The notes under the pieces were generated by a model that saw only the letters and a program-made list of their open reading frames with translations, ran no database searches and was not told the origin of the DNA. A program made the translations under genes and the position numbers. 34,462 nucleotides of DNA from Sedimentisphaerales bacterium (lineage in GTDB: Bacteria > Planctomycetota > Phycisphaerae > Sedimentisphaerales > Anaerobacaceae), in contig JANQFY010000362.1 in NCBI GenBank assembly GCA_028277585.1, forward strand, positions 1 to 34,462, in the 5' to 3' direction. Each line of letters starts with the position of its first letter. Position 1 is the stretch's first letter. Below, piece by piece: positions 4,654-21,347 of this stretch.

Positions 4654-7600
4654 GTGGTGAAACCGTCGCCCATCTTCGTTGTTGCGCTCGTTGTTGCGGG
4701 AGGGCTGCTCCTGCCGCCGGGCGGACTTCATGTAACCGAAGGGCAGGAGCTATTCTCGTACCAATCTCGGACGCTGCGGGCGGCGATCGAAGATCTTATT
4801 GAGACCCACGGCCTGCAATACCCCCAAGGCCGAGAGTACCTGCGGCGTCTGGATGAACTGGCCGAATCGCTGGATGCGCGCGATCCCGCCGCGCAGCAGC
4901 AGTTTGAGCGGCTGCGGCGCGAGGCGCTGCTGGCCAATCCGTTGTTGGATTTCGACCGACTGCTGTTCGTCAAGCGCAAGAGCGAGCCCTATGTCCCCTC
5001 GGCCCTGGATAAGAAGATCGGGCTCTCCAACAGTCTCGGCGCGGACCTGGGCTTCCCCTCCAACCACGAATGCAATTCGTCGTTGCCTCGGGAGGGCTAC
5101 GACAATGAGATTGCCGTTCTGTCTCTGCGAGACATGGGCCGCGGGCCGCGCACCCTATACCGACCTGACGCCGACGTCTATGTGGGGGAGATGGACCTGC
5201 ATTGGGATGGGCAGCGACTGCTGTTCACGCAATCCGGCAAGAAGAACTGGAGCGTATGGGAGTTCCGTGCGGACGGAACGGGTTTGCGAGATGTCTCGCG
5301 AATGCCTGACGACGTCGACAGTTTCGACGCGTGCTACTTGCCCAATGGCAAGATCGTATTCGGCTCCACCGCCTCGTATCAAGCCGTCCCCTGTTGGCAC
5401 GGCCGCAAGTGGGTGAGCAATCTGTACCTAATGGACGCCGACGGGGCGAACGTACGCCAGTTGTGCTTCGATCAGGATCATGATTTTCATCCGTGTGTTC
5501 TGGGCAATGGGCAGGTTCTGTTTCACCGTTGGGATTACACGGGGATCAATCACATCTTCATGCGTCAACTGATGGTCATGAATCCGGACGGCACAGGTCA
5601 GCGCGCGGTCTATGGGAGCAATTCGTGGTATCCAAACGCGCTGTACTTCCCGCAACCATTTCCGGGCGAGAGCCACCGGCTGGCCTGTATCCTCGCCGGT
5701 TACCATGGGGTCCACCGGATGGGCCAGTTCGTGCTGGCCGACACGAGCCGGGGTTGGTACGGCGCCGATGGACTCGTGCGGCGGATTTCGGGCAAGGGCG
5801 ATTCCATCAAGCCGAAAGTGCAGGATGCTTTGGTCAACGCCGACTGGCCCAAGTTCCTGCATCCCTATCCGCTCAGTGACAAGCACTTCCTTGTGGCATG
5901 CTGGCCCCATCGCAAAGCGAACTGGGGAATCTACCTGGCGGATGCATTCGACAACCTCCTGCTCCTGTATGAGGAGCCCGGCCATGCTATGTTGGAACCG
6001 ATCCCAATCGCCGAACGACGGAAACCGCCGGCGATTCCGGAGAAGGTCGATCCGAGCCGGGACGATGCGGTGGTCTATTTGCATGATGTCTACGCGGGTC
6101 CGGGACTGGCGGGCGTGCCGCGCGGTACGGTCCAGTCGCTGCGCGTGCTGGCGTATCACTTTGGGTATCGCCACCTGGCGGGGCCGGACAAGATTGGGTA
6201 CGGCGGGCCTTGGGAAGCGATGCGCATCCTGGGTACGGTTCCTTTGGAGGCCGATGGCTCGGTCATGTTCCGTGTTCCAGCCAATACCCCCATCGCCGTT
6301 CAGCCATTGGATGCCGAGGGCAAGGCCGTCCAACTGATGCGGAGTTGGTTCACCGCCATGCCTGGCGAGGTTCTCTCCTGCGTGGGGTGTCATGAGAGCC
6401 CGGCCGAGGCGACCCCTCCGCAACTGGCGACGGCCGCTCAGCGAAGACCCCGTGACATTGAGCCCTGGTACGGTCCGGCCCGCGGATTCGATTTCGCCCG
6501 TGAGGTGCAGCCGGTCCTGAACAAGTATTGCGTGGCCTGTCACGATGGTCGTTCCGGCCGGCCCGATCTTCGCGCCGAAGAACTCGTGCCGGACTACCAG
6601 GGCCTTCGCCTCTCGAAACTGGGTGTCAATCGGTTGCACCCTGCCATGAGTCAAGACACGGACGGCTACCTCAAGTACACACCGGCCTACGATGCTCTGA
6701 TCCCGTATGTCCGCCGGGTTGGCATCGAGGACGACGTCAGCCTGCTCATGCCGGGCGAGTACCATGCGGACACCAGTCCTCTGATCCAAATGTTGCAGCG
6801 CGGTCACCAGGGTGTAGAACTCAATGCCGAGGCCTGGGATCGACTCGTCACCTGGATCGATCTGAACGGCCCTTGCCATGGGACCTGGGGCGACGTGTAT
6901 CCGATTCCGGACGGCGCCCACGAACGACGCATGGCCCTGCGTCGTGCCTATGGTGGTCCGCCGGACGACCCCGAGACGGTTCCGGATCGACAGCCCTTCG
7001 ACGAAACGCCCGTTGAACCGGCATCACCGCCGGCCCCAACGTCGGTCAGGACCGCCTCGCTGTCGGTTGTCGGGGCAAGCCAGGTCGAGAGGATTGTGGA
7101 CCTGGGGCAGGGCGTAACGATGAAGCTCGTGAGGGCGCCGTCCTTCGAGGGCGGACCAGTGTTCTGGATCGGGGCATGCGAAGTCACCAATCGGCAGTTC
7201 CAACTGTTTGACCCGAGCCACGATGCCCGGTACTATCAGAAGCGGCATGTCCGCAGCGATGACAGGGGATTGCCGCTCAATGGACCGAACCAGCCGGCGG
7301 TTCGGGTCTCCTGGGATAGTGCGATGGACTTCTGTCGCTGGCTCTCGGATCGGACGAGGATGGCCTTTACGCTGCCTACGGAGGACCAGTGGGAACACGC
7401 TTGTCGAGCCGGGCGGGTGACGTCGCTTGGCTACGGCGCTCTGGAGGACGATTTTTCTCCGTGGGCCAATGTGGGCGACCTGGCCTTCGCCGGTCTGGCC
7501 ACAGTAGAGAAACGACGCGCATGGGAGAAGGGCAAGGCCCCTCAGATAACAGGAGGCGTCGAACATCTGGCGATGGAAGGAGCGGCCCTGGCCCGATCGG

Positions 7601-7884
7601 ATGCCAGCGACGGCGCTGTGGTGACGGCGGATGTGGGCAGCTATCGACCCAATCCATGGGGCCTCCACGATATGCATGGCAACGCCGCGGAGTGGACGCA
7701 GACGGCTTGCGGAACGGACCACTGGATCGTCAAGGGCGGGTCCTTTTATGATCCGCCGCGGTTCTGTCGTAGCGACCTCCGCGTGGCCTATCCCGCCTGG
7801 CAGCGGGTCTTCAATGTGGGATTCCGCGTTGTCTGCACGGAGACGGACGTTGTCCGTGTCACGCGGGCTCAGAATGGGGAGTGA
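4654..7884 (+). CDS. HzsA-related dihaem c-type cytochrome fused to a SUMF1/FGE-like domain
   Basis: This 1076-aa protein has an N-terminal hydrophobic export signal (about 7-22). A WD-like beta-propeller region of the hydrazine synthase alpha family fills much of the N-terminal half ('LYLMDADGANVRQL', 'NPDGTGQRAVY'). Two haem-binding motifs follow: CVGCH at 576-580 and CVACH at 626-630. A sulfatase-modifying-factor/FGE-like domain occupies about 823-1065 ('ACEVTNRQF', 'LPTEDQWEHACRAG', 'NAAEWT', 'KGGSFYD', 'VGFRVVC'). Of the two catalytic cysteines of classical formylglycine-generating enzyme, the first position appears to be Asp1033 while Cys1038 fits the second, so FGE activity is unlikely. 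HzsA relatives are widespread in planctomycetes outside anammox, and their reaction is unknown. GTG start at 4654 (another GTG at 4657); the ribosome binding site is weak. The gene sits 47 bp before the next cytochrome gene, suggesting co-transcription. Confidence 0.85.
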   Translation: MVKPSPIFVVALVVAGGLLLPPGGLHVTEGQELFSYQSRTLRAAIEDLIETHGLQYPQGREYLRRLDELAESLDARDPAAQQQFERLRREALLANPLLDFDRLLFVKRKSEPYVPSALDKKIGLSNSLGADLGFPSNHECNSSLPREGYDNEIAVLSLRDMGRGPRTLYRPDADVYVGEMDLHWDGQRLLFTQSGKKNWSVWEFRADGTGLRDVSRMPDDVDSFDACYLPNGKIVFGSTASYQAVPCWHGRKWVSNLYLMDADGANVRQLCFDQDHDFHPCVLGNGQVLFHRWDYTGINHIFMRQLMVMNPDGTGQRAVYGSNSWYPNALYFPQPFPGESHRLACILAGYHGVHRMGQFVLADTSRGWYGADGLVRRISGKGDSIKPKVQDALVNADWPKFLHPYPLSDKHFLVACWPHRKANWGIYLADAFDNLLLLYEEPGHAMLEPIPIAERRKPPAIPEKVDPSRDDAVVYLHDVYAGPGLAGVPRGTVQSLRVLAYHFGYRHLAGPDKIGYGGPWEAMRILGTVPLEADGSVMFRVPANTPIAVQPLDAEGKAVQLMRSWFTAMPGEVLSCVGCHESPAEATPPQLATAAQRRPRDIEPWYGPARGFDFAREVQPVLNKYCVACHDGRSGRPDLRAEELVPDYQGLRLSKLGVNRLHPAMSQDTDGYLKYTPAYDALIPYVRRVGIEDDVSLLMPGEYHADTSPLIQMLQRGHQGVELNAEAWDRLVTWIDLNGPCHGTWGDVYPIPDGAHERRMALRRAYGGPPDDPETVPDRQPFDETPVEPASPPAPTSVRTASLSVVGASQVERIVDLGQGVTMKLVRAPSFEGGPVFWIGACEVTNRQFQLFDPSHDARYYQKRHVRSDDRGLPLNGPNQPAVRVSWDSAMDFCRWLSDRTRMAFTLPTEDQWEHACRAGRVTSLGYGALEDDFSPWANVGDLAFAGLATVEKRRAWEKGKAPQITGGVEHLAMEGAALARSDASDGAVVTADVGSYRPNPWGLHDMHGNAAEWTQTACGTDHWIVKGGSFYDPPRFCRSDLRVAYPAWQRVFNVGFRVVCTETDVVRVTRAQNGE

Positions 7885-7931: not shown

Positions 7932-9776
7932 ATGATTCTTCATGTGTTGGCAGGTATGATTCTAACGAGTGCGGGGGCTTCAACGGGTTCGGCGTCCCTT
8001 TCTCCCCAGGCGGTTCTGGCAGTCGAGCACCGACAGGAGCTGTATGTTGCTCTGGGTGATGCCCGTCAGATCGGCGTGTACGACGTTGCGAGTGACAGGA
8101 TCGTCCGCACGATCAAGGTCCCGGGCGAACCGACGAGTCTGGCTCTCAGCGGTGGGGGACGATGGCTCTACACCACCTGTGGGCAGGTCGACGGACGCGT
8201 CTGTGTGATCGATACCACCACGGGGCGAACCGTGCGGGACATCCCCGTTGGATACGGTCCTGTCGCAGCTACGCTGGACGCCCGGCGGAGCATTCTGTAT
8301 GTCTGCAATCGGTTCGACAACGACGTCTGGGCGATCGATCCGATTGACGGCGCATGCCTGGGCAAGGCGCCGGTGGTGCGGGAGCCGATCGCGGCGGCGC
8401 TGACGCCCGATGGCAACTGGCTCTATGTCGGGAACCACCTGCCGGCCGGCGCGATTGGCGCCGCCGCCGTGGCCTGCGAGGTCTCTATGATCGATACGGC
8501 GACGATGCGAGTCGCCGCGTCTGTGTTGCTGCCCAACGGCAGCACAGGGCTTCGCGGCATGACGGCTTCGCCCGACGGCAAGTATGTCTACGTCTCGCAT
8601 ATCCTGGCGCGATACACCGTGCCGACGACGCAACTGGATCGAGGCTGGATGAATACGAATGCCCTGAGCATCATCGATGTTCAGGCGCAGAAGGTGCTCG
8701 ATACTGTGCTCCTCGACGATGTCGATCGCGGCGCGGCCAACCCCTGGGGTGTCGCCTGCTCGAATGACGGTAAGACGCTCTTCGTGACCCATGCCGGTAC
8801 GGACGAACTGAGCGTCATCGATGTCGATGGCATGCTGGCCAAGATCAAGGACCATCCGTCCAAGCAGCGTACTGGTCAGCAGGCGGCCAGCGGTAACTCA
8901 TCCTATGGGGGGGCTTCGGTCGCGGCGGTTGCCAATCAACTCAGCTTCCTCAAAGGAGTACGGCAGCGCGTACGTCTGGAGGGCAAGGGACCGCGCGCTC
9001 TGGCGGTGATGGGAGCCAAGGTCTACGTTGCTGAGTGCTTCACCGGGACGATGACGGTGGTCGACACCGCCCCGAAGACGATCGCGACGATGGCTGTGGC
9101 GCTAGGGACGCAGCCGCCGCTGAAAGGGCCGCGGCGTGGGGAGATGCTGTTCAATGACGCGTCGCTCTGCTTTCAGCAGTGGCAGAGTTGCGCAAGTTGC
9201 CATCCCGATGGACGCGTCGATGCGCTGAATTGGGACCTTCTCAACGATGGGATCGGTAATCCCAAGAACACCAAGAACATGCTGCTCGCCCACCAGACGC
9301 CGCCGGCAATGATTACGGGTGTGCGTCCCCATGCCGAGTACGCCGTTCGGTCGGGATTCCGCCACATTCTGTTTGCCGAGTGCAAGGAAGCGGATGCCGT
9401 GGCGATCGACGCCTATCTCAGTGGCCTCCAAGCGGCGCCGAGTCCCCATCTTGTCGAGGGCAAGCTCAGCGCCGCCGCCCGGCGTGGTAAGGCCCTGTTC
9501 CGCAGTGCCGGCTGCGCCGCATGCCATGCGGGGGACTTGCTCACCGATATGCAGAAGTACGATGTGGGTACGGCCGACGGGGTGGATAAGGGCAAGGAGT
9601 TCGACACGCCGTCGCTGGTGGAACTCTGGCGGACGGCGCCCTATCTATACGACGGTCGCGCCGCCACGATTCGCGAGGTCCTGACACGCTACAATCCGAA
9701 TGATCTGCACGGCGTCACGTCGGATCTCAGCGCGGACGAAATCGCGGATCTGGAGGCCTACGTCCTCTCGCAGTAG
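7932..9776 (+). CDS. Secreted YVTN-type beta-propeller fused to a MauG-like dihaem domain
   Basis: The 614-aa product starts with a short signal peptide (about 1-22). A seven-bladed-type propeller (about 25-400) follows, with repeated phrases such as 'YVALGDARQIGVYD', 'YVCNRFDNDVWAID' and 'FVTHAGTDELSVID'. The C-terminal third resembles MauG/dihaem cytochrome c peroxidases. It has two CxxCH sites, CASCH at 420-424 and CAACH at 528-532, and the family's late phrase 'DTPSLVELWRTAPYLYDGRA'. Members transfer electrons or act on peroxide or protein substrates outside the cytoplasm; which applies here is not visible. ATG start at 7932, with a purine-rich GGGAAGGCAGG about 11 bp upstream. It is probably co-transcribed with the HzsA-like gene and ends 14 bp from the convergent response-regulator gene. 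Confidence 0.87.
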   Translation: MILHVLAGMILTSAGASTGSASLSPQAVLAVEHRQELYVALGDARQIGVYDVASDRIVRTIKVPGEPTSLALSGGGRWLYTTCGQVDGRVCVIDTTTGRTVRDIPVGYGPVAATLDARRSILYVCNRFDNDVWAIDPIDGACLGKAPVVREPIAAALTPDGNWLYVGNHLPAGAIGAAAVACEVSMIDTATMRVAASVLLPNGSTGLRGMTASPDGKYVYVSHILARYTVPTTQLDRGWMNTNALSIIDVQAQKVLDTVLLDDVDRGAANPWGVACSNDGKTLFVTHAGTDELSVIDVDGMLAKIKDHPSKQRTGQQAASGNSSYGGASVAAVANQLSFLKGVRQRVRLEGKGPRALAVMGAKVYVAECFTGTMTVVDTAPKTIATMAVALGTQPPLKGPRRGEMLFNDASLCFQQWQSCASCHPDGRVDALNWDLLNDGIGNPKNTKNMLLAHQTPPAMITGVRPHAEYAVRSGFRHILFAECKEADAVAIDAYLSGLQAAPSPHLVEGKLSAAARRGKALFRSAGCAACHAGDLLTDMQKYDVGTADGVDKGKEFDTPSLVELWRTAPYLYDGRAATIREVLTRYNPNDLHGVTSDLSADEIADLEAYVLSQ

Positions 9777-9790
9777 GCGTTGTTCGCCCG

Positions 9791-10474
9791 CTAGTCCTGA
9801 GGCGGTTCGAATTTGTAGCCGACTTCGCGAACGGTCTGGATATAGGTCGGGCGGTGCGGATCGGGCTCGATCTTGTTGCGCAGTGTGGTGACGAATCGAT
9901 CGATGCTGCGCGTCCCGACGTACGAATCGTATCCCCAGACGGCGTTGAGGATGTCGTCGCGAGAGAGGGCTCGGCCCGGCTTCTTGACGAACAGTTCGAG
10001 CAAGCCGAACTCCTTGGGGGAGAGCTTGATCTCTTCGTTGTCGCGCGTGAGCTTTCGAGCGGGCAGATCCAGCGTGTAGTCGCCGAAGCGGTAGACGTCC
10101 GCCTGGGCCGGTTGCGTACGGCGCAACAGCGCTTCGGCGCGGGCGAGCAGTTCTTTGATGCTGAAGGGCTTGGTGACGTAATCGTCGGCTCCGAGGTTCA
10201 GGCCCAGGACGACATCCGACTCCTCGCTCTTGGCGGTGAGCATGATGATCGGCGTGTCGATTCCCTCCTTGCGGATCAGCCGGCAGACCTCATAGCCGTT
10301 GATCTTGGGTAGCATGAGGTCCAGCAGGACCAGGTCCGGTTTGGCGTTCAGCACGGCGTTCAGTCCGGCCTCGCCGTCCTCGGCGGCATGGACCTGGTAG
10401 CCCCGGAACTCGAAGTTGTCCCTCAGGCCGCGCAACATGGCGGGGTCGTCTTCGACGATCACAACCGTCTTCAC
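9791..10474 (-). CDS. OmpR/PhoB-family DNA-binding response regulator
   Basis: This is a 227-aa protein of the usual length for the family. The receiver domain (1-115) has acidic pocket residues E8, D9 and D10, phospho-acceptor D52 ('LVLLDLMLP'), T80 and K102 ('TKPF'). The winged-helix trans_reg_C domain (about 130-225) carries 'LSPKEFGLLELFVKKPGRALSRDDIL' and ends 'YIQTVREVGYKF'. The start is a GTG at 10474 ('MKTVVIVEDD'), chosen over longer options because AAAGGA lies 7 bp before it and the receiver begins there. Upstream, in the same direction and 13 bp away, is the sensor kinase gene, so the two proteins are probably a cognate pair. The likely target is a direct repeat upstream of the operon. 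The signal and regulon are unknown. Confidence 0.95.
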   Translation of the reverse strand: MKTVVIVEDDPAMLRGLRDNFEFRGYQVHAAEDGEAGLNAVLNAKPDLVLLDLMLPKINGYEVCRLIRKEGIDTPIIMLTAKSEESDVVLGLNLGADDYVTKPFSIKELLARAEALLRRTQPAQADVYRFGDYTLDLPARKLTRDNEEIKLSPKEFGLLELFVKKPGRALSRDDILNAVWGYDSYVGTRSIDRFVTTLRNKIEPDPHRPTYIQTVREVGYKFEPPQD

Positions 10475-10481
10475 TGATGGT

Positions 10482-10487
10482 TCCTTT
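10482..10487 (-). promoter_or_regulatory. Ribosome binding site deciding the response-regulator start
   Basis: AAAGGA (read on the minus strand) lies 7 bp before the GTG at 10474 and fits between the kinase stop codon (10488-10490) and that start. It argues against a start at 10597 inside the kinase gene. Confidence 0.75.
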
Positions 10488-12593
10488 CTATCCGTTCTTG
10501 TTCTGTGCGGGCAGGGCGACGGTGAACGTGCATCCCTGTCCAGGTTTGCTGTCGACCGAGATGGTTCCGGCGTGGGCGTCGACGATGAATTTGGCAATGC
10601 TCAGACCCAGGCCGCAGCCCTCGGCCCGCCGCGACAGACGCCGATCCACCTGGTAAAACCGTTTGAAGATGCGCTTCTGCGCCCTACGTGGGATGCCGAC
10701 GCCCTTGTCCGAGACGCTGAACCGGACCGAGTGATCCTGATGGGTGACGCTCAGCTTGATCTGCTTGTCATCTTGAGAGTACTTGCACGCGTTGTCCAGC
10801 AGGTTGACCAGAACCGTCACCATGGCGTCGGGGTCCGCCTTGACTTCGGGCAGATCGGCGGTGATGTCCGTTTCGAGATCGCACGCGGTGCTGCTGAACT
10901 TGGTCATAACCGCCTCAGCGGCGGTGCCAGCGATCTCTTGCGGAGGCACCATTCGCATCTGGAAGGCCTGCTTGTTCCTTTCCATCCGCGAGAAGGTCAG
11001 GAAGTTGTCGATCAGGCGGCTGAGCCGGCCGTTCTCGCTCGAGATCAACTGCAGGTATTCCGTGACTTGCTGTTGGTCGCGGTAGTGGCCCTCCAGCAAC
11101 GTATCGACCAGGACACGCATGGAAGCCAGCGGTGTCTTCAACTCGTGGGTGACGGTGGCGATGAAGTCGTTCTTGAGCCGATTGAGCCGAACCTGTCGCC
11201 CAATCGACTTGGCCGCGACGGCGCCGAAGGCGAGAATGAGCATGATGACAAGCGTCCCCGTCCAGGTGTAGGCGGCGATCTGCTCACCGGCGGCTTTGTC
11301 GAGCACGTCGCCTTCCTGGAAGAAGAGCTCTATCTGCCAGTTGGGGAAGTACGTTCCGACAGGCCCCGTGGCGAAGGGCTCGCCGATCGGTTTGCTCTGT
11401 CCGATGACGAGTTGACCGGCTTCGTCGACAATGCGATAGTCGATGTACTCGTCGCGAAACGCTTTCGCGAAATCGGCGAGCCCAGCGTGAATCGTTCGAT
11501 CGGATAGCAGCGCCAGATACGTTCGGCCTTGCGACCGATGAACCAATCCGTAGCTGGCTTCATCACCGGCCGTCAGCGGCGTGAGACGATCGGGATTCCA
11601 GTTCTCGAACGCGGTGGTCGAAGGGAAACGCTCGGTAAGTTCGAGCGAGCGGGTTTCCGCGGCGATGAGGTCCTCCAGTGGAACCCGGTGAACGCGCCGC
11701 ATCTGTGCCTGTAGGACAGGCTTGTCGCGTGCAATCTCCAGCAGTTTCTGGGCGACGAAGAGGTTCTGGTCGGTGGTCAGAGAAGCGCCGGCTTCGTTGG
11801 CCCGGTAAAGCATGGCCGCCAGTTCAGTGAAGGTTGTCTCGAACAGGTTGGCGTACTGACCTCGGTGACGCACCCAGTTGAGCATCAGGAGTCGGGCATT
11901 GGCGATGAGCGAGAGGATCTCCGCGTCTCCGGTTTCAGTTAGGGGGCTGTTCGTTGCCTGGCGGCACACGGTAATGGCTTCGCCAATCCGGTCCATCTTG
12001 CCCAGTGATCGGCTCTGCCCGATCACCGCGGCGAGGTAGCGCCGATCCAGAGCGAACTCATCAGTCTGTTCCGACTTGCCCAGGGACAGTCCGCGTCGGG
12101 CTATTCGAATCAGGCGTCCCGGATCGGTCAGGGCCGCCCGGGCATGCTGTTCATACCGTTGAGCGGCCCGGGCGTAATCCTGGTCGACGAATTCCAACTG
12201 CCAGGCGTCGGCGAAGACGGCAGACGCCTCGCCGGCGCGATCGGTTGACAGCAGGGGGTAGAGCCGTTCTCCCGAATTGGCGTAGATGAGCAGACCGTCG
12301 CAGCCGTTGCCCCCGGCGGCGGTCACGAACTCCTGGTAGGGCGGTTTCGGCTCATCCGACCCGAACTGCCGACACCGTTCGGCCCAGTCCTTCTCGACGT
12401 TCTGCATGGCTTCGGCGAGTTGGCCCTGGTAGAAGGTGATCAGCTTCTGTCGGACCACGAGGTGTTCGTTGTCGATCGCCTCGTTCATGAACCAGAGCAA
12501 ACAGACGGTGGGCAGTATCACCGCTACTACCAGCAGCAATACCACCCACCGAAACTGACCGTATTCTGTATTGACCTTCTGCTTCAAACGCAC
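10488..12593 (-). CDS. Membrane sensor histidine kinase with large extracytoplasmic domain
   Basis: The 701-aa protein has a transmembrane helix at about 15-36, a long extracytoplasmic region (about 37-443) and a second helix at about 444-463. The cytoplasmic kinase core follows: H box 'VTHELKTPLAS' with phospho-acceptor H483, N box 'NLLDNACKYS', G1 'DKGVGIP', F box 'FKRFYQVD' and G2 'GCGLGLSIAK'. The sensor region contains TPR-like helical stretches ('QDYARAAQRYEQHARAA', 'GKMDRIGEAITVCRQA') and matches no ligand-binding domain I know. GTG start at 12593 with GAGG six bases upstream. It lies 33 bp after the secreted CBM9 protein gene and 13 bp before the response regulator, so all three are probably one operon. 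It faces away from the reductive dehalogenase genes, whose expression it may control (inference from position). Confidence 0.94.
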   Translation of the reverse strand: MRLKQKVNTEYGQFRWVVLLLVVAVILPTVCLLWFMNEAIDNEHLVVRQKLITFYQGQLAEAMQNVEKDWAERCRQFGSDEPKPPYQEFVTAAGGNGCDGLLIYANSGERLYPLLSTDRAGEASAVFADAWQLEFVDQDYARAAQRYEQHARAALTDPGRLIRIARRGLSLGKSEQTDEFALDRRYLAAVIGQSRSLGKMDRIGEAITVCRQATNSPLTETGDAEILSLIANARLLMLNWVRHRGQYANLFETTFTELAAMLYRANEAGASLTTDQNLFVAQKLLEIARDKPVLQAQMRRVHRVPLEDLIAAETRSLELTERFPSTTAFENWNPDRLTPLTAGDEASYGLVHRSQGRTYLALLSDRTIHAGLADFAKAFRDEYIDYRIVDEAGQLVIGQSKPIGEPFATGPVGTYFPNWQIELFFQEGDVLDKAAGEQIAAYTWTGTLVIMLILAFGAVAAKSIGRQVRLNRLKNDFIATVTHELKTPLASMRVLVDTLLEGHYRDQQQVTEYLQLISSENGRLSRLIDNFLTFSRMERNKQAFQMRMVPPQEIAGTAAEAVMTKFSSTACDLETDITADLPEVKADPDAMVTVLVNLLDNACKYSQDDKQIKLSVTHQDHSVRFSVSDKGVGIPRRAQKRIFKRFYQVDRRLSRRAEGCGLGLSIAKFIVDAHAGTISVDSKPGQGCTFTVALPAQNKNG

Positions 12594-15525: not shown

Positions 15526-16980
15526 ATGGAAACAGGAACGGATATGCCCGAGCGGCAACTCCGGGTCAACCGAAGGACACTCATCAAGGCGGCCGGGGCG
15601 ACCAGCGCCGTGCTCGGCCTGTCGGGGCTTGGGCTGTCCGGCTATCGGGCAGGCAAGGCCCCGGACAGCTACACGGGCTGTGAAGGGTCCCAGGGAGCGG
15701 CCCAGGATTTCGACCGGAAGCGATTCGCCGTCGACACGCCGCCTTACGAGAAGGTCGGCCCCACGTCTCGCGCCGATGGGCGAACGGAAGTGATCTTCAG
15801 TCGGGTCGGCGTCGCGCGGTCTGCCGCGGAGAAGGGCGCGAAGATCGAGGACCTCGATGAACCGTTCAAGAGCTATTACGCGCAGCATCCCGAGGATTTC
15901 GAGTTCGACAAGCAGAACCGCGAACTGAGGCGGAAGGTCCGGGAGGATAGCGAGGAAAACCGAAACCGATACATCCTCGCCGAGGCCTGGGCCGGCGCGA
16001 TGGGAGCGGTCTCGCCCAGGTCGATCGGCAACGATCCGCCGGAGGTGTCGGATTTCCCGCGGCAGGGCTCCCGCGAACCGTTCAAGATGAAGAGTCCGGC
16101 CGCCACGGCGAAACTCATCAAGAAGGTCAGCTATGAGTTCGGAACGGTGCTGGTGGGGATCACCAAGCTCAATCCCGACTGGGTGTATCAGTACCCCAGC
16201 AGCCGACGCGGCTTCGCGACCGATGAGCCGATCGAGGTGCCGAAGCACTGGAAGTACGCGATCGTGGTCGGCACGCCGATGTCGTGGGATCCGATGTACG
16301 CCAACCCCACGTACGGGACCAGCAACGACGCCTATTCCAAGTCGCGGATCGTCGCGTTTCGCCTGGCGTCGTTCATCAAGCGACTGGGCTACGCAGCTCG
16401 ACCCCACACGCCCGGCAACAGCTACGATCTCATGGTGCCGCCCATCATGGTCGACGCCGGGTTGGGCGAGCAGGGCAGGCATTCGGTTGTCATCACGCCC
16501 GAGCTGGGATGCAATTTCCGGCCCGCCGTTGTCACCACCAACCTGCCGATGGCGACGGACAAGCCGATCGCTTTCGGCGTACAGGAGTTCTGCAAGACCT
16601 GCAAGATCTGCGCCGAGCAGTGTCCCAGCGGCGCGATCTGCAAGGGAGACAAGGAAGTGGTCCGGGGGTACCGACGCTATCGACTGCACAGTTCGAAGTG
16701 CTTCAACTTCTGGAACTCCACGCATGGCAGCATGGGGTGCAGAGTCTGTATTGCGGTGTGCCCCTACACGCGCAAGTCGAACTGGGTGCATAAGACGGCG
16801 CTGCAGGTCACGGCCAACGATCCCACGGGTCTGTCCCACAAGATGCTGACTGGGATGCAGAAGCGTTTCTATCCCGGCCCCGAGCCTTCCGACTATTATG
16901 CCGCCACTCTCGGCGGGAAGAATGCCTCCTACAGAGAGCCGCCGTGGTGGCTGAAGACGGAAGACTTCATTGCACTCTAA
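15526..16980 (+). CDS. rdhA: Reductive dehalogenase catalytic subunit
   Basis: RdhA enzymes remove halogen from organohalides using a corrinoid and two [4Fe-4S] clusters. This 484-aa protein has a Tat signal (NRRTLIK, twin Arg 16-17, then a hydrophobic Ala/Gly/Leu stretch to about 38). The family body includes 'VDTPPYEKVGPTSRADGRT', 'VGITKLNPDWVY' and 'IVAFRLASFIKRLGY'. Tyr270 is a candidate for the catalytic Tyr (Tyr246 in PceA). 'GLGEQGRHSVVITPELG' follows. The first cluster is C356-x2-C359-x2-C362-x3-C366-P. The second is C392, then C405-x2-C408-x3-C412-P. The ATG at 15526 is preferred to the TTG at 15508 because GGGAAGG lies 5 bp before it. The enzyme should act outside the cytoplasmic membrane with RdhB as anchor. 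The substrate cannot be read from sequence. Confidence 0.93.
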   Translation: METGTDMPERQLRVNRRTLIKAAGATSAVLGLSGLGLSGYRAGKAPDSYTGCEGSQGAAQDFDRKRFAVDTPPYEKVGPTSRADGRTEVIFSRVGVARSAAEKGAKIEDLDEPFKSYYAQHPEDFEFDKQNRELRRKVREDSEENRNRYILAEAWAGAMGAVSPRSIGNDPPEVSDFPRQGSREPFKMKSPAATAKLIKKVSYEFGTVLVGITKLNPDWVYQYPSSRRGFATDEPIEVPKHWKYAIVVGTPMSWDPMYANPTYGTSNDAYSKSRIVAFRLASFIKRLGYAARPHTPGNSYDLMVPPIMVDAGLGEQGRHSVVITPELGCNFRPAVVTTNLPMATDKPIAFGVQEFCKTCKICAEQCPSGAICKGDKEVVRGYRRYRLHSSKCFNFWNSTHGSMGCRVCIAVCPYTRKSNWVHKTALQVTANDPTGLSHKMLTGMQKRFYPGPEPSDYYAATLGGKNASYREPPWWLKTEDFIAL

Positions 16981-17000
16981 CTCATCCTGGGGAAGTGATC

Positions 17001-17282
17001 ATGTCGTTTTTCGAAGGTGGTTTGTTCTGGTTCACCGAAGGGGTGCTCGCCTGTCTGGCGATCATTGCGCTGAGGACCTGGACCCAGGACAAAGGCATCC
17101 GCATGCCGTTCTGGAAATGGCCCGTGGTTTGTACTTGGGTGCTGTTTCTTGGTGTGTCGATCGCCTATGTCGGTACGAGTCTCGGTGAGGGTGAAAGGCA
17201 CGCCGCCTTCCTCGGCGCGGTTTGTGCGGCGGTGATAGCCTCTGTATCTGGAGTTGTGGTGTGGCGACTGCTAAGGCTGTGA
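17001..17282 (+). CDS. rdhB: Reductive dehalogenase membrane anchor
   Basis: This 93-aa protein is typical in size for RdhB, with three predicted membrane helices (about 13-25, 40-58 and 68-90). The second loop carries 'GEGERHAAFLG', resembling the Glu-Pro-Arg-Ala-like signature of RdhB proteins but with Gly-Glu-Arg in place of Pro-Arg. RdhB is thought to hold the exported RdhA at the membrane. The start is the ATG at 17001, with GGGGAAG just upstream and 20 bp after the rdhA stop. A start at 16944 would overlap rdhA and spoil the N-terminal topology. Identification rests largely on position, size and topology, because the family is poorly conserved. The stop overlaps the start region of the next gene. 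Confidence 0.8.
   Translation: MSFFEGGLFWFTEGVLACLAIIALRTWTQDKGIRMPFWKWPVVCTWVLFLGVSIAYVGTSLGEGERHAAFLGAVCAAVIASVSGVVVWRLLRL
17250..17253 (+). promoter_or_regulatory. Ribosome binding site favouring the 17261 start of rdhC
   Basis: GGAG lies 7 bp before GTG 17261. The competing GTG at 17279 overlaps the rdhB stop as GTGA but has only a close AAGG. Confidence 0.45.
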
Positions 17283-18427
17283 CAAAGAACCGCGAGCGGT
17301 TGCTCGCCTTCGCGATCGTGGTCTCACTCCTCGCTGGCTGGGTCGTGGGGTGGTCTCGACACCACAGTGACGTTGCGGGCTTCCTGCAGCAGGGTTTGCC
17401 GGATGCGGTTCGTTTCGAGTCTGAGCAGGACGACATCTACGCCGGCCTGACCGACGCTCAATCCGAGAGCGAGACCGTCGGTTACGTCGCCATCCGCTCC
17501 GCCCCTGGCTATGCGGGCCCCGTAACCGTTGCAGTCGGCCTGGACCCAAACGGGACGGTCGTCAACGCCGTGCTCGTTCGACAAACGGAGTCGCCTGCGT
17601 TCTTCCGGAAGGTGGCCGACAAGGGGTTCCCGGGCCGCTTTAAAGGCAAGGCGTGTTCCGACCCCTTCGAAATCGGGGATGACGTCGATTCGGTTACCGG
17701 TGCGACTGTCACTCTGACGGCTCTCACAGAAGCGATCCGCCTGGCCTGCTCCGACATAGCGACGGGGCGGTTGGGTCTGCCCCCGGTCGTCAGGCCAAGG
17801 CCGCCCATACAGTTCGGCCTGCCCGAGATACTGCTGATCCTCCTTATCGCGACTGGGTTCGCTGCCCATGCCAAGAAACTGCCAGGCGGGCCGACCATCC
17901 GGTGGGTCGTGTTGATCGCTTCGCTGGTCTTTGTCGGTTTCGTGTGGCGCCGACCGGTCTCGCTGGCGAACATCAATTCCTTACTGATCGGGTACTGGCC
18001 GGGATGGCAAAACGGTGTCTACTGGTGCGTACTCCTCGCTGCCCTTCTGGTTCCCGCAATTCTGACCGGCAAGACACCGTACTGCAGTCATATCTGCCCC
18101 TTCGGCGCCGCCCAGGAGATCCTCGTGAAGGTGGGAGGTTCGAAGAGGCAATTGCCCCCGAAGTACGGGCGGCTGTTCAAGATCCTCCAGCGAGCCCTAG
18201 CCTGGATCGCTGTGATGTGCGCCCTGATCTTTCGCAACCCGACCGCCATCAGCTACGAAGCCCCGGCGACGCTCTTCACCTTCATCGGCGCCAACTGGCA
18301 GTTCGTCCTCCTGGCCCTGATCCTGATCGCCTCGCTGTTCATCGCCCGCCCCTGGTGCAACGCCCTCTGCCCCATCCGCGCCGTCACCGACTACCTCCGA
18401 CTCCTCAGGAGGAACTTCGGACGATAG
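17261..18427 (+). CDS. rdhC: RdhC/NosR-like FMN-binding polyferredoxin membrane protein
   Basis: RdhC (PceC-type) proteins carry a covalently bound FMN outside the membrane and are implicated in electron transfer or maturation for reductive dehalogenases. This 388-aa protein shows the expected order. A first membrane helix lies at about 13-30. A periplasmic FMN-binding domain (about 50-170) has 'DSVTGATVT', with Thr149 the likely FMN attachment site. Further helices lie at about 187-203, 213-229, 253-269, 311-325 and 346-362. Two Cys-x3-Cys-Pro motifs (C275/C279 in 'YCSHICPFGA', C366/C370 in 'WCNALCPIRA') are typical of NosR and RdhC. GTG 17261 is favoured; 17279 (18 bp later) is the alternative. 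Either overlaps rdhB, suggesting translational coupling. NosR itself is less likely given the rdhAB context. Confidence 0.87.
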   Translation: MATAKAVTKNRERLLAFAIVVSLLAGWVVGWSRHHSDVAGFLQQGLPDAVRFESEQDDIYAGLTDAQSESETVGYVAIRSAPGYAGPVTVAVGLDPNGTVVNAVLVRQTESPAFFRKVADKGFPGRFKGKACSDPFEIGDDVDSVTGATVTLTALTEAIRLACSDIATGRLGLPPVVRPRPPIQFGLPEILLILLIATGFAAHAKKLPGGPTIRWVVLIASLVFVGFVWRRPVSLANINSLLIGYWPGWQNGVYWCVLLAALLVPAILTGKTPYCSHICPFGAAQEILVKVGGSKRQLPPKYGRLFKILQRALAWIAVMCALIFRNPTAISYEAPATLFTFIGANWQFVLLALILIASLFIARPWCNALCPIRAVTDYLRLLRRNFGR

Positions 18428-18466: not shown

Positions 18467-20545
18467 TCACTCCTCCTCATCAAAGGCCTCCCACCAAAGC
18501 CGAGGATAATCCCACCCCTCGTCAATCCACCAGATGTCCTCCGTCCCATTCTCCTCCTCCCCCGCAAAGTCCCACCCCGCCTCCAAGAACAGCGCCGCCG
18601 TCATCATCTCCGCCATGGTCAGTGCCGGTGCATCATTGCGTTTACTCTTTCCGATAGCCTCGGTCTGGACGAAAGAAGCGAAGATCCTGCCGCTGGAATC
18701 TCCGGCCAAGCCATGGGCGTAAGTGGCGCCGATCACGTCACCTGTCGAATAGCAGCGTCTGATTGTGCCGCCCCGGTTGTCTCCGATTAGACCACCGACC
18801 CTCTCGTATCCGATGACCCTGCCACTCGCATAACAGTCCCTAACCGTGGCTTCGTGCCAAAGCCAGCCAGTCAAACCACCTACATTCGTATTACCGACAA
18901 CATCACTGGTGGAACGACTGGTTGTTATGCTGCCAGATCCTGCTAGGCCACCAACCGAATCGCGTCCAACTACAAGCCCCGAGGAGCCGCAGTTCACTAA
19001 GAAACCGTCATTCTTGCCCACCAAGCCGCCCACGCTGCTCTCACCGGTGATCGTTCCGGAGACGTGACAGTTCGCGACGCGGCCTTCATTCCAGCCAACC
19101 AGAGCGCCAATGCCGTGCCCGTCATCGACTCGGATTGTTGCATTAACGAGATTGAGGTTCTTAACCTCGGCGCCAAAGATGTTCCCGAAAAGACCGACGA
19201 AGTCCTTGTTGCGGAGATCCCAATAGAACTTGGGACTCAATTCCCAGGTGAAATTGTGGATGCTGTGCCCTTTGCCGTCGAACACGCCGGTGAAGGGGAT
19301 CGGAGTTATTTCGTGTCCCCACTCACCGTAGCCGGCGGCGATTCGATGGAAATGCGTACCCGTGTAGTCTCCCAGGTCCAGATCGGCCATCAGTTCATAG
19401 TGCTTATCCCACTCCTCGGGGTACCGGCCGATCAGATCCAGTTGTCCAGCCGTGTAGATCCGGTAGGGATCTGAGGGAGTCCCTGTGCCCGGCAATAGGT
19501 GCGAGAGTTCCAAGGGGCCAATTGTTATCCCGGGCTGGCCCTCCCAGGCCAGTCTCGGATAGTCACGACCTTCGTCGATGGTCCAGATCCCTTCGTTGTC
19601 CGGGGTGCCCCACGCTAGATAGGTGGCGACCGTTCGCATCTGAGCGGCTGCCCTGCTGCGGGCGATGTCGTACGTCTCCCGGTTGCCTGTCTGGAACTCC
19701 CAGAAGGATTCTTCTCCCGATCCTCGGCCGACCAGTCCGCCCGAGTTCGAGTTCCCTACGACCAGACCCACTGCGTAACAACTGACGATTTCTCCCTGTC
19801 CCACCAGCCCGCCGACATAGTCATCGCCGAGCACAATGCCCATGGCATAGCAATTGCGAACGTCAAAGGCTGCTCCAGCGAGCCCTCCAACATTCAGGAC
19901 GCCGGTGACTTTGCCGGTGCAGTAGCAGCCGGTGACTTTGCCCTGGGGGTCATACCGCCTGTCCTCGTCGATTCGACCGGCCAAGCCGCCGACTGTGTTC
20001 TTTCCTGAGACAGTCACTCCTATGGCATAGCAGTTCCTGATCGCTCCCGCGTCAAGCCTGCCGGCGAGCGAGCCGACGTAGGTTCCTATTGCAGCCTCCA
20101 CTTTCGGTTCGATCAGGCCCAGATCGCGGATCTCGGCATTGGGATCGTGGATACACCGGAAGAGCCCCGTGTAGTATTCGTACCGTTAAACGTACGTGAA
20201 GTTTGAGATGGTGTGACCGTTGCCGTCAAAGACTCCCATGAACGCTGTCGGTTGCGTCACATCTGGGATATCGTGCGATCTGCTGTCGATTGTGCCACGC
20301 GCCCCAATGAGGTTGAACTCCTCGCCGGCATAGGCGGACAGGTCGATGTCGGCCATGAGTTTGAAGTGTTTGTCCCAGTCGTTGGGGTCGGCGCCGATGG
20401 CGTTCATCTGCTCGGGCGTGTAGATCAGGTAGGGGTCGTTGGGTTCGCCTGCGCCACCGCCGTATTGGGCGATTGCCGCCCGACTTAGGGCCGCGATGAG
20501 GATGCAGACCACGACAGCAGGGGGGAAAGCTCCTTTCCTCTCCAT
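18467..20545 (-). pseudogene. GLUG-repeat secreted protein gene interrupted by an in-frame TAA
   Basis: A gene starting at ATG 20545 (GGAAGGAAG just upstream) encodes a signal peptide ('AVVVCILIAALSRAAIAQ') and a first module ending 'GHTISNFTYV'. A TAA at 20186-20188 then stops translation after 119 codons. The same frame continues without shift ('RYEYYTGLFRCIHDPN') for another 572 codons to 18467. The downstream part carries many GLUG motifs ('VGGLAGR', 'VGGLVGQ', 'VGGLIGDN', 'NCYAIG') and a second copy of the module ('DPYRIYTAGQLDLIG', 'WDKHYELMADLDLG'). GLUG repeats form beta-helical surface or secreted proteins. The intact remainder means the stop is recent, is a sequence error, or is read through. 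A later start at 20101 lacks a signal peptide and is unlikely to serve. Confidence 0.75.
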
Positions 20546-21347
20546 TTCGCTTCCTTCCAGATAGTCTTCTATGATCGTATGATGACATCGACACGCCGCA
20601 CTGGGCCGCGTCGCTTCTATACGAATAAGATGCGATCGGACGCACATCTGTTCCCTGAGGTGAACATGATTCTTCGAGAAAAGCGTCCCTGCCTCGCGTG
20701 CCGTACTTGCGATTCTATTCTAGCATCTCAGCCGCGAATTCAGGAGTTCTTCTCGACTATCATCCGACTGGAGCCGAGGGCGGAATAGAGGAATCTGGCT
20801 GCGTGCGTGACGCGCTGCCCCGCAATGGGGAGATCCCTCCGTTGCGGCCATGGTAGGTCGTGCGTCCCCGCACGACTTTGGCGGGCGAGACGCCCGCCCT
20901 ACGTTTCGCAAAGAACGTGCAACGGTTTATGTGCAGAAGCCGGTGACATGGAAGATTTTTTTGGTGTTGTCACGGCCTGAGGTTACGGCGCTTGGACGTG
21001 CTGCGTTTCCCGTTTTTTTCGCAATGAACGTGCAGTTCGGCCCATTAGTAGAGGGGGACTCTTCCTCGGCGGGGCCGAGAAAGGAGATCAAAGTGCAAAG
21101 TGTAGAATGCAAAGTTGAGGAGGTCATCGCCGCGGCGCGGCGATTCAACAAGTTCGGCCCATGGCCTGTGGCACCTGATTCAGCTCGCCTTCGGACTGAG
21201 GTGTCGTTTTGAACAAACGAACCCAATTATCGTCGATATTGGCTCAGGAACAGCGATTTGACGGGAAAACGAACCCAAACGAAGCCAATCGGCCCCGATG
21301 CCTGACGTGGGCAGGGCTCGTCGGGACCCCGTTTTTGCGGGTGGGGC
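20546..21347. other. Non-coding stretch with interspersed repeat-like hairpins
   Basis: No convincing gene was found; short frames here lack ribosome binding sites and protein-like composition. The stretch holds a two-hairpin element (20852-20902), a perfect 9-bp dyad around one base at 21126-21144, and the 12-base direct repeat AAACGAACCCAA at 21215-21226 and 21267-21278 (with a one-mismatch third copy at 21277-21288). It resembles the repeat-rich spacer DNA of planctomycete genomes. Confidence 0.55.
20852..20902. repeat. REP/MITE-like double-hairpin element
   Basis: GTCGTGCG-TCCC-CGCACGAC (20857-20876) and GGCGGGCG-AGA-CGCCCGCC (20880-20898) are two perfect 8-bp stems separated by TTT. They are flanked by GTAGG (20853-20857) and CCTAC (20898-20902). 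The compact, symmetric design in a gene-free region is typical of small non-autonomous interspersed repeats. Copy number in the genome is not visible here. Confidence 0.6.

Follow-up and report, generated by a model that had tools for sequence, protein, structure and literature searches.

A complete reductive dehalogenase (rdhABC) gene set lies at positions 15526-18427 of contig JANQFY010000362.1 from the Sedimentisphaerales bacterium assembly GCA_028277585.1. The whole contig (34,462 nucleotides) was analyzed and is referred to here as the window. It belongs to a metagenome-assembled genome (MAG) of 7.17 Mb in 532 contigs. The three genes are on the + strand, and their positions and main motifs are as follows.

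15526-16980, + strand: rdhA, predicted catalytic subunit (484 aa) of a corrinoid/[4Fe-4S]2 reductive dehalogenase exported by twin-arginine translocation (Tat), with Tyr270, Arg332, His422, and Tyr449; assigned from TIGR02486, PDB phmmer and profile matches, active-site alignment, and tree
15571-15588, + strand: twin-arginine motif RRTLIK of the Tat signal (RdhA residues 16-21), kept among close relatives as RR-x-[FL]-[LI]-K
16591-16626, + strand: first Fe-S motif, C-x2-C-x2-C-x3-CP, CKTCKICAEQCP (RdhA residues 356-367), fitting the FeS1 definition (PMC6797604)
16738-16764, + strand: second Fe-S motif, C-x2-C-x3-CP, CRVCIAVCP (RdhA residues 405-413), fitting the FeS2 definition (PMC6797604)
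17001-17282, + strand: rdhB, predicted three-helix membrane anchor (93 aa) with an ExE motif (GEGE, Glu63/Glu65) and WKW replacing WYEW; adjoins rdhA in 22 of 22 loci
17261-18427, + strand: rdhC, predicted membrane flavoprotein (388 aa, GTG start) with an FMN_bind domain and two Cx3CP motifs; assigned from PF04205 and PF12801 matches above cut-off, motifs, and alignment with loci L024 and L025

The gap between rdhA and rdhB is 20 nt, and rdhB and rdhC overlap by 22 nt. The mechanical open reading frame of rdhC starts at TTG 17222, but the start was moved to GTG 17261 because that codon aligns with the first codon of the homologues at L024 and L025. An earlier note on this DNA had described a complete, tightly spaced and overlapping rdhABC set with a Tat signal and both ferredoxin-like cysteine motifs in RdhA, a small three-helix anchor, and an RdhC with a flavin mononucleotide (FMN) attachment motif and two Cys-x3-Cys-Pro motifs. 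All of these elements were found.

RdhA passes the curated family model TIGR02486 (176.1 bits, E 1.5e-51, cut-off 160.35), and phmmer matches it to the solved structures of NpRdhA (E 1e-38) and of SmPceA from Sulfurospirillum multivorans (E 8e-35). Judged from these matches and the conserved rdhA-rdhB order, the match to an rdh operon is far beyond chance. In the Tat motif of RdhA, which precedes a hydrophobic stretch, Leu replaces the Phe of RRxFxK; most close relatives read RRxFLK. Tyr270, placed by the earlier note in the corrinoid pocket, was found at that position and aligns gap-free with the catalytic Tyr of SmPceA (Tyr246), of DhPceA from Desulfitobacterium hafniense (Tyr337), and of NpRdhA (Tyr426). 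Arg332 aligns with SmPceA Arg305, a position held by Lys in catabolic enzymes (K488). A 24-sequence alignment shows no variation at Tyr270, Arg332, or any of the Fe-S cysteines. A structure model was built with AlphaFold2 using 24 sequences, and its best 36 Foldseek matches are all reductive dehalogenases (E 8e-19 to 3e-15), with QueG next at about 1e-6. A corrinoid pocket is tentatively supported by residue conservation and by the fold match of a low-confidence model.

Two related classes were considered and rejected for RdhA. Membership of the QueG (epoxyqueuosine reductase) family, which the earlier note had named as the outcome that would overturn its reading, is ruled out by a TIGR00276 score of 47 bits (200 required) and by tree separation from QueG at 100/100. 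The catabolic RdhA class is ruled out by the presence of Tat and RdhB, the lack of a fused reductase domain, and Arg rather than Lys at position 332. The host genome has one rdhA copy, and its QueG-like genes are separate. It also encodes a short (231-aa) QueG/RDH-like protein beside a diaminopimelate epimerase gene (L085, G000:C307, 1806-2501), which scores below both curated cut-offs.

The region around the predicted substrate channel differs from that of known tetrachloroethene (PCE) dehalogenases. Before the VPxHW segment, RdhA is shorter by about 24 residues than SmPceA (its residues ~165-205) and by 33 than DhPceA, and we take the inserted SmPceA segment to lie near the substrate channel. 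SmPceA Asn272 is near that channel according to its published description. In RdhA, the corresponding loop reads HTPGxSYDLM, with Pro296 at the Asn position and one residue extra. Because of the missing segment and the altered loop, a substrate other than PCE is plausible for RdhA.

RdhB matched no family model among Pfam and the curated models, but it has three hydrophobic segments with the ExE motif between helices 2 and 3 and can be aligned with a Dehalococcoides RdhB. The two share the ExE motif, nearby Ala and Trp residues, and an N-terminal WF..G. The earlier note took an altered RdhB signature as a sign of divergence. The change itself is real, as the W-Y-E-W of that Dehalococcoides protein reads W-K-W in all of the close relatives, but it is no defining signature because WYEW is also missing from a Sulfurospirillum RdhB (L045).

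RdhC proteins are recognized by a [S/T]G[A/S]Tx[S/T] motif, two Cx3CP motifs, and six transmembrane helices (PMC5928378). The window's RdhC agrees with this description, with TGATVT at 146, CSHICP at 275, CNALCP at 366, and roughly six hydrophobic segments (by Kyte-Doolittle only). Thr149 in TGATVT is the residue whose counterpart bears FMN in PceC. FMN_bind (PF04205) and Fer4_5 (PF12801) both score above Pfam cut-offs, and the nearest relatives of RdhC with a solved structure are RnfG proteins. In a 2018 paper, the phyla given for RdhC were limited to Firmicutes, Chloroflexi, Proteobacteria, and Bacteroidetes (PMC5928378).

Relatives were sought in 84,980 species genomes, with exact 8-residue query peptides as seeds. 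Twenty-one loci encode relatives at about 55-87% identity to RdhA, giving 22 members with the window; the true extent is larger than found because this seeding favours close relatives. The hosts are MAGs of Phycisphaerae/Planctomycetota, Aminicenantes and other Acidobacteriota, Latescibacterota, Gemmatimonadota, Zixibacteria, and Desulfobacterales, and many of them bear names that refer to cold seeps, the Black Sea, Guaymas Basin, or estuary sediment. While rdhB adjoins rdhA in every member, rdhC does so in 14 of the 22 (one of these truncated at a contig end). All-against-all BLAST found no shared neighbours of these operons beyond rdhA, rdhB, and rdhC, and the Pfam content of the neighbours is heterogeneous. 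No IMG/VR viral contig matched the query's peptide patterns.

A maximum-likelihood tree was built from the 22 members, PDB and plasmid references, QueG, and 15 other planctomycete Rdhs. The 22 members form one branch (100/100) on a long stem (1.05 changes per column), separate from QueG, the catabolic NpRdhA group, the PceA-type references, and the other planctomycete Rdhs sampled. The branch stayed intact (95/100) when the tree was rebuilt without long-branch rows; in the rebuilt tree its six planctomycete members cluster with moderate support (86/80). Its nearest join relative to the PceA and catabolic groups has a support of 68/19 only. These sequence comparisons strongly support a distinct RdhA branch across at least six phyla of sediment bacteria. 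The earlier note's suggestion of a divergent branch is thus upheld, but not by the TTNLPM phrase that it had cited; this is no evidence of divergence because similar phrases occur in SmPceA (FTNMPL), NpRdhA (TTDLPM), and other planctomycete Rdhs (TTNLPL). No paper describing the branch was found in the open-access literature on rdh genes in planctomycetes, and the branch appears to be uncharacterized in the open literature.

Some genomes carry rdhA genes of more than one branch. At L039:4366-7449 and L042:2-2715, the rdhA of this branch has an rdhA of another branch (PceA-side) immediately upstream, and the two share one rdhB and one rdhC. One planctomycete genome (G526, Phycisphaerae bacterium SM23_30; loci L023/L040, L022, and L016) has three rdhA genes of three different branches.

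Origin of the operon from a misbinned contig of another organism was considered, as the MAG consists of 532 contigs and branch members occur in many phyla. This explanation was rejected and has almost no probability left, because the genes flanking rdh are syntenic with same-genus genomes. A block of TPR_CBM9, histidine kinase, and response regulator genes beside rdh is conserved in four genomes of the genus and in another member of the family (58-80% identity). In addition, DnaA and FtsY are encoded on the contig, two other genera of the family carry rdhABC with RdhA 87% identical, and GC content at third codon positions (GC3) of rdhA is 0.82, no different from host genes. The contig and the operon are truly planctomycete, in agreement with the planctomycete-like genome proposed in the earlier note.

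The five syntenic relatives have no rdh at this locus, and synteny stops at rdh. Rdh proteins at E <1e-25 were found in seven of 161 genomes of the order and in none of five same-genus genomes. In a sample of the phylum, 11 of 392 genomes had Rdh at this E value, six of them above cut-off with the window included. In the two other genera of the family, the operons lie amid unrelated genes. This patchy presence, shifting context, and mixture of phyla fit horizontal transfer. In composition, rdhA is like the host genes, and nothing therefore points to its having come very recently from a donor of different composition.

From the family, motifs, operon, tree position, and host identity described above, we infer the activity, substrate, and electron route of RdhA as follows. 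The operon probably works as a membrane-bound, exported corrinoid reductive dehalogenase, and a role in anaerobic electron disposal is most likely. RdhA would fold with a corrinoid and two [4Fe-4S] clusters and be exported by Tat, and RdhB would anchor it at the outer surface of the cytoplasmic membrane. Electrons derived, for instance, from H2 or fermentation would run via the two Fe-S clusters to cob(I)alamin, which would cleave the carbon-halogen bond; Tyr270 would donate the proton and Arg332 would stabilize the site. The electrons would in this way be disposed onto an organohalide. The earlier note had proposed that the host can use organohalides, perhaps natural marine bromo- or chlorophenols, as electron acceptors, which we treat as a possibility. 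The host genome encodes NiFe hydrogenases (group-1-like, of the NiFeSe/uptake-like type) and has three cobalamin riboswitches; no match to heme-copper oxidase (COX1) was found in it.

Several points weigh against this assignment or parts of it. The MAG is 80% complete, and the operon has neither a dedicated regulator gene nor a PceT chaperone gene. The structure model is too weak for pocket inspection (mean predicted local distance difference test score 59, predicted template modelling score 0.59, TM ~0.5), and RdhA sequence is no predictor of substrate (PMC6797604). Electron entry in the host is more likely quinone-independent than menaquinol-fed, an argument from absence and from two pocket residues. 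The FMN of RdhC may perhaps be the point of electron entry, as a hypothesis; however, a third of the branch lacks rdhC, and in PceABCT, PceA outnumbers PceC about 50-fold (PMC8905343).

Classical organohalide respiration as in Desulfitobacterium, in which an RdhA2B2 complex (menaquinol:organohalide oxidoreductase, MOOR) oxidizes menaquinol at the A/B interface and RdhC is accessory, would be consistent with the host hydrogenases and the conserved RdhB ExE motif. The menaquinol-site residues of DhPceA are K489, H495, R499, D515, and Y520 (PMC10624902). By alignment, two are kept in RdhA (H495 as His422, Y520 as Tyr449) and K489 is conservatively replaced by Arg416, but R499 corresponds to Leu426 and D515 to Met444/Gln445. 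Moreover, organisms that do not depend on quinone also keep some of these residues (PMC10624902). Menaquinone markers were searched as single families (MqnA/D, MenB, MenD), with controls as expected. MqnA/D had no match over cut-off in six same-genus genomes (four at least 94% complete), nor had MenB in same-genus genomes; in the host, the one genome checked for MenD, only distant matches resembling thiamine pyrophosphate enzymes were found, none over cut-off. Because no menaquinone marker was found and R499 and D515 are not conserved, we consider the classical menaquinol-fed route doubtful in this host.

Still less probable is a non-respiratory role, either as a periplasmic corrinoid reductase for detoxification or with a non-halogenated substrate as in the related QueG. 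The remodelled HTPGxSYDLM loop with Pro296, the shortening by about 24 residues, the single rdhA copy (unlike many dedicated dehalorespirers), and the wide occurrence of the branch in organisms without known dehalorespiration would all agree with such a role. Against it, Tat export, the RdhB anchor, and RdhC make up a respiratory-type set, and QueG is separated both as genes in the host and in the tree. Apart from the exported dehalogenase that we favour, a more far-reaching proposal can be put forward tentatively: a separate rdhABC subfamily may have been transferred among at least six anoxic-sediment phyla and may run without menaquinone, with electrons passing via the RnfG-like FMN domain of RdhC (or another partner) and a pocket remodelled for a common natural organohalide.

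Other genes of the window are listed below.

4654-7884, + strand: hydrazine-synthase-like gene, with hydrazine synthase (HZS) alpha middle domain (98 bits, cut-off 26.6), FGE-sulfatase domain, and CxxCH motifs
7932-9776, + strand: hydrazine-synthase-like partner gene, with a weak match to the HZS beta-gamma fusion (139 of 1250 bits)
9791-12593, - strand: OmpR-type response regulator and PhoR/WalK-like histidine kinase; same-genus genomes keep both together with the TPR_CBM9 gene
18467-20101 and 20186-20647, - strand: GLUG-repeat protein genes, downstream of rdhC

Similar co-located HZS-like homologues have already been reported in non-anammox bacteria of the Planctomycetes-Verrucomicrobia-Chlamydiae group (PMC12758564). 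Control of rdh by the two-component system 2.9 kb away was set aside because the block that it forms with TPR_CBM9 is conserved in relatives lacking rdh. Several same-genus genomes have two response regulators in this block, compared with one in the window. The GLUG gene at 18467-20101 starts 85 nt past the last base of the one at 20186-20647, and the two may be parts of a single gene interrupted by a frameshift or stop.

Known organohalide-respiring bacteria belong to few phyla, and sediment metagenomes are rich in rdhA genes of unknown role. The present locus places a complete operon of the exported type firmly on a planctomycete chromosome and in a compact, highly conserved branch that spans several phyla. 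The active site hardly varies within the branch, so one tested member would inform on all of them. With its apparent lack of menaquinone markers, the host genus is useful for asking how RdhAB can be driven in the absence of quinone and which role RdhC plays. As a kind, the system is well known, but the branch and the way in which its host would power RdhA are unfamiliar.

The operon resembles PceA/PceB/PceC of Desulfitobacterium hafniense and Dehalobacter restrictus (PceA2B2 menaquinol:organohalide oxidoreductase, PDB 8q4h) in its A-B-C order, Tat signal, Fe-S motifs, catalytic Tyr/Arg, RdhB ExE, and the FMN and Cx3CP motifs of RdhC. It differs from them in having no PceT, in the D515 and R499 positions, and in a host genus with no menaquinone marker; compared with DhPceA, RdhA is on another tree branch and about 30 aligned residues are missing ahead of the VP-HW segment. 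SmPceA (PDB 4uqu) is the best profile match of RdhA among solved structures (236 bits) and has the equivalents of its catalytic residues (Y246/R305), but RdhA lacks a segment of about 24 residues and has Pro at the Asn272 position, and the Sulfurospirillum RdhB at L045 has neither the first helix nor W-K-W. The catabolic NpRdhA/BhbA type (PDB 4ras) shares the corrinoid core, the Tyr426 equivalent, and the absence of the same inserted segment, but NpRdhA forms a separate branch and has Lys in place of Arg332, a fused reductase domain, and no Tat or RdhB. By description, the rdhABC of Desulfoluna, marine bromo-organohalide respirers, is similar in its gene set, RdhC FMN and Cx3CP motifs, and marine sediment habitat, whereas the Desulfoluna host is sulfate-reducing and contains menaquinone (PMC7031245). 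Tat-less hybrid RdhA proteins with N-terminal transmembrane helices are likewise widespread in uncultured sediment phyla (PMC6797604), but they have neither Tat nor a separate RdhB, and the RdhA described here has both.

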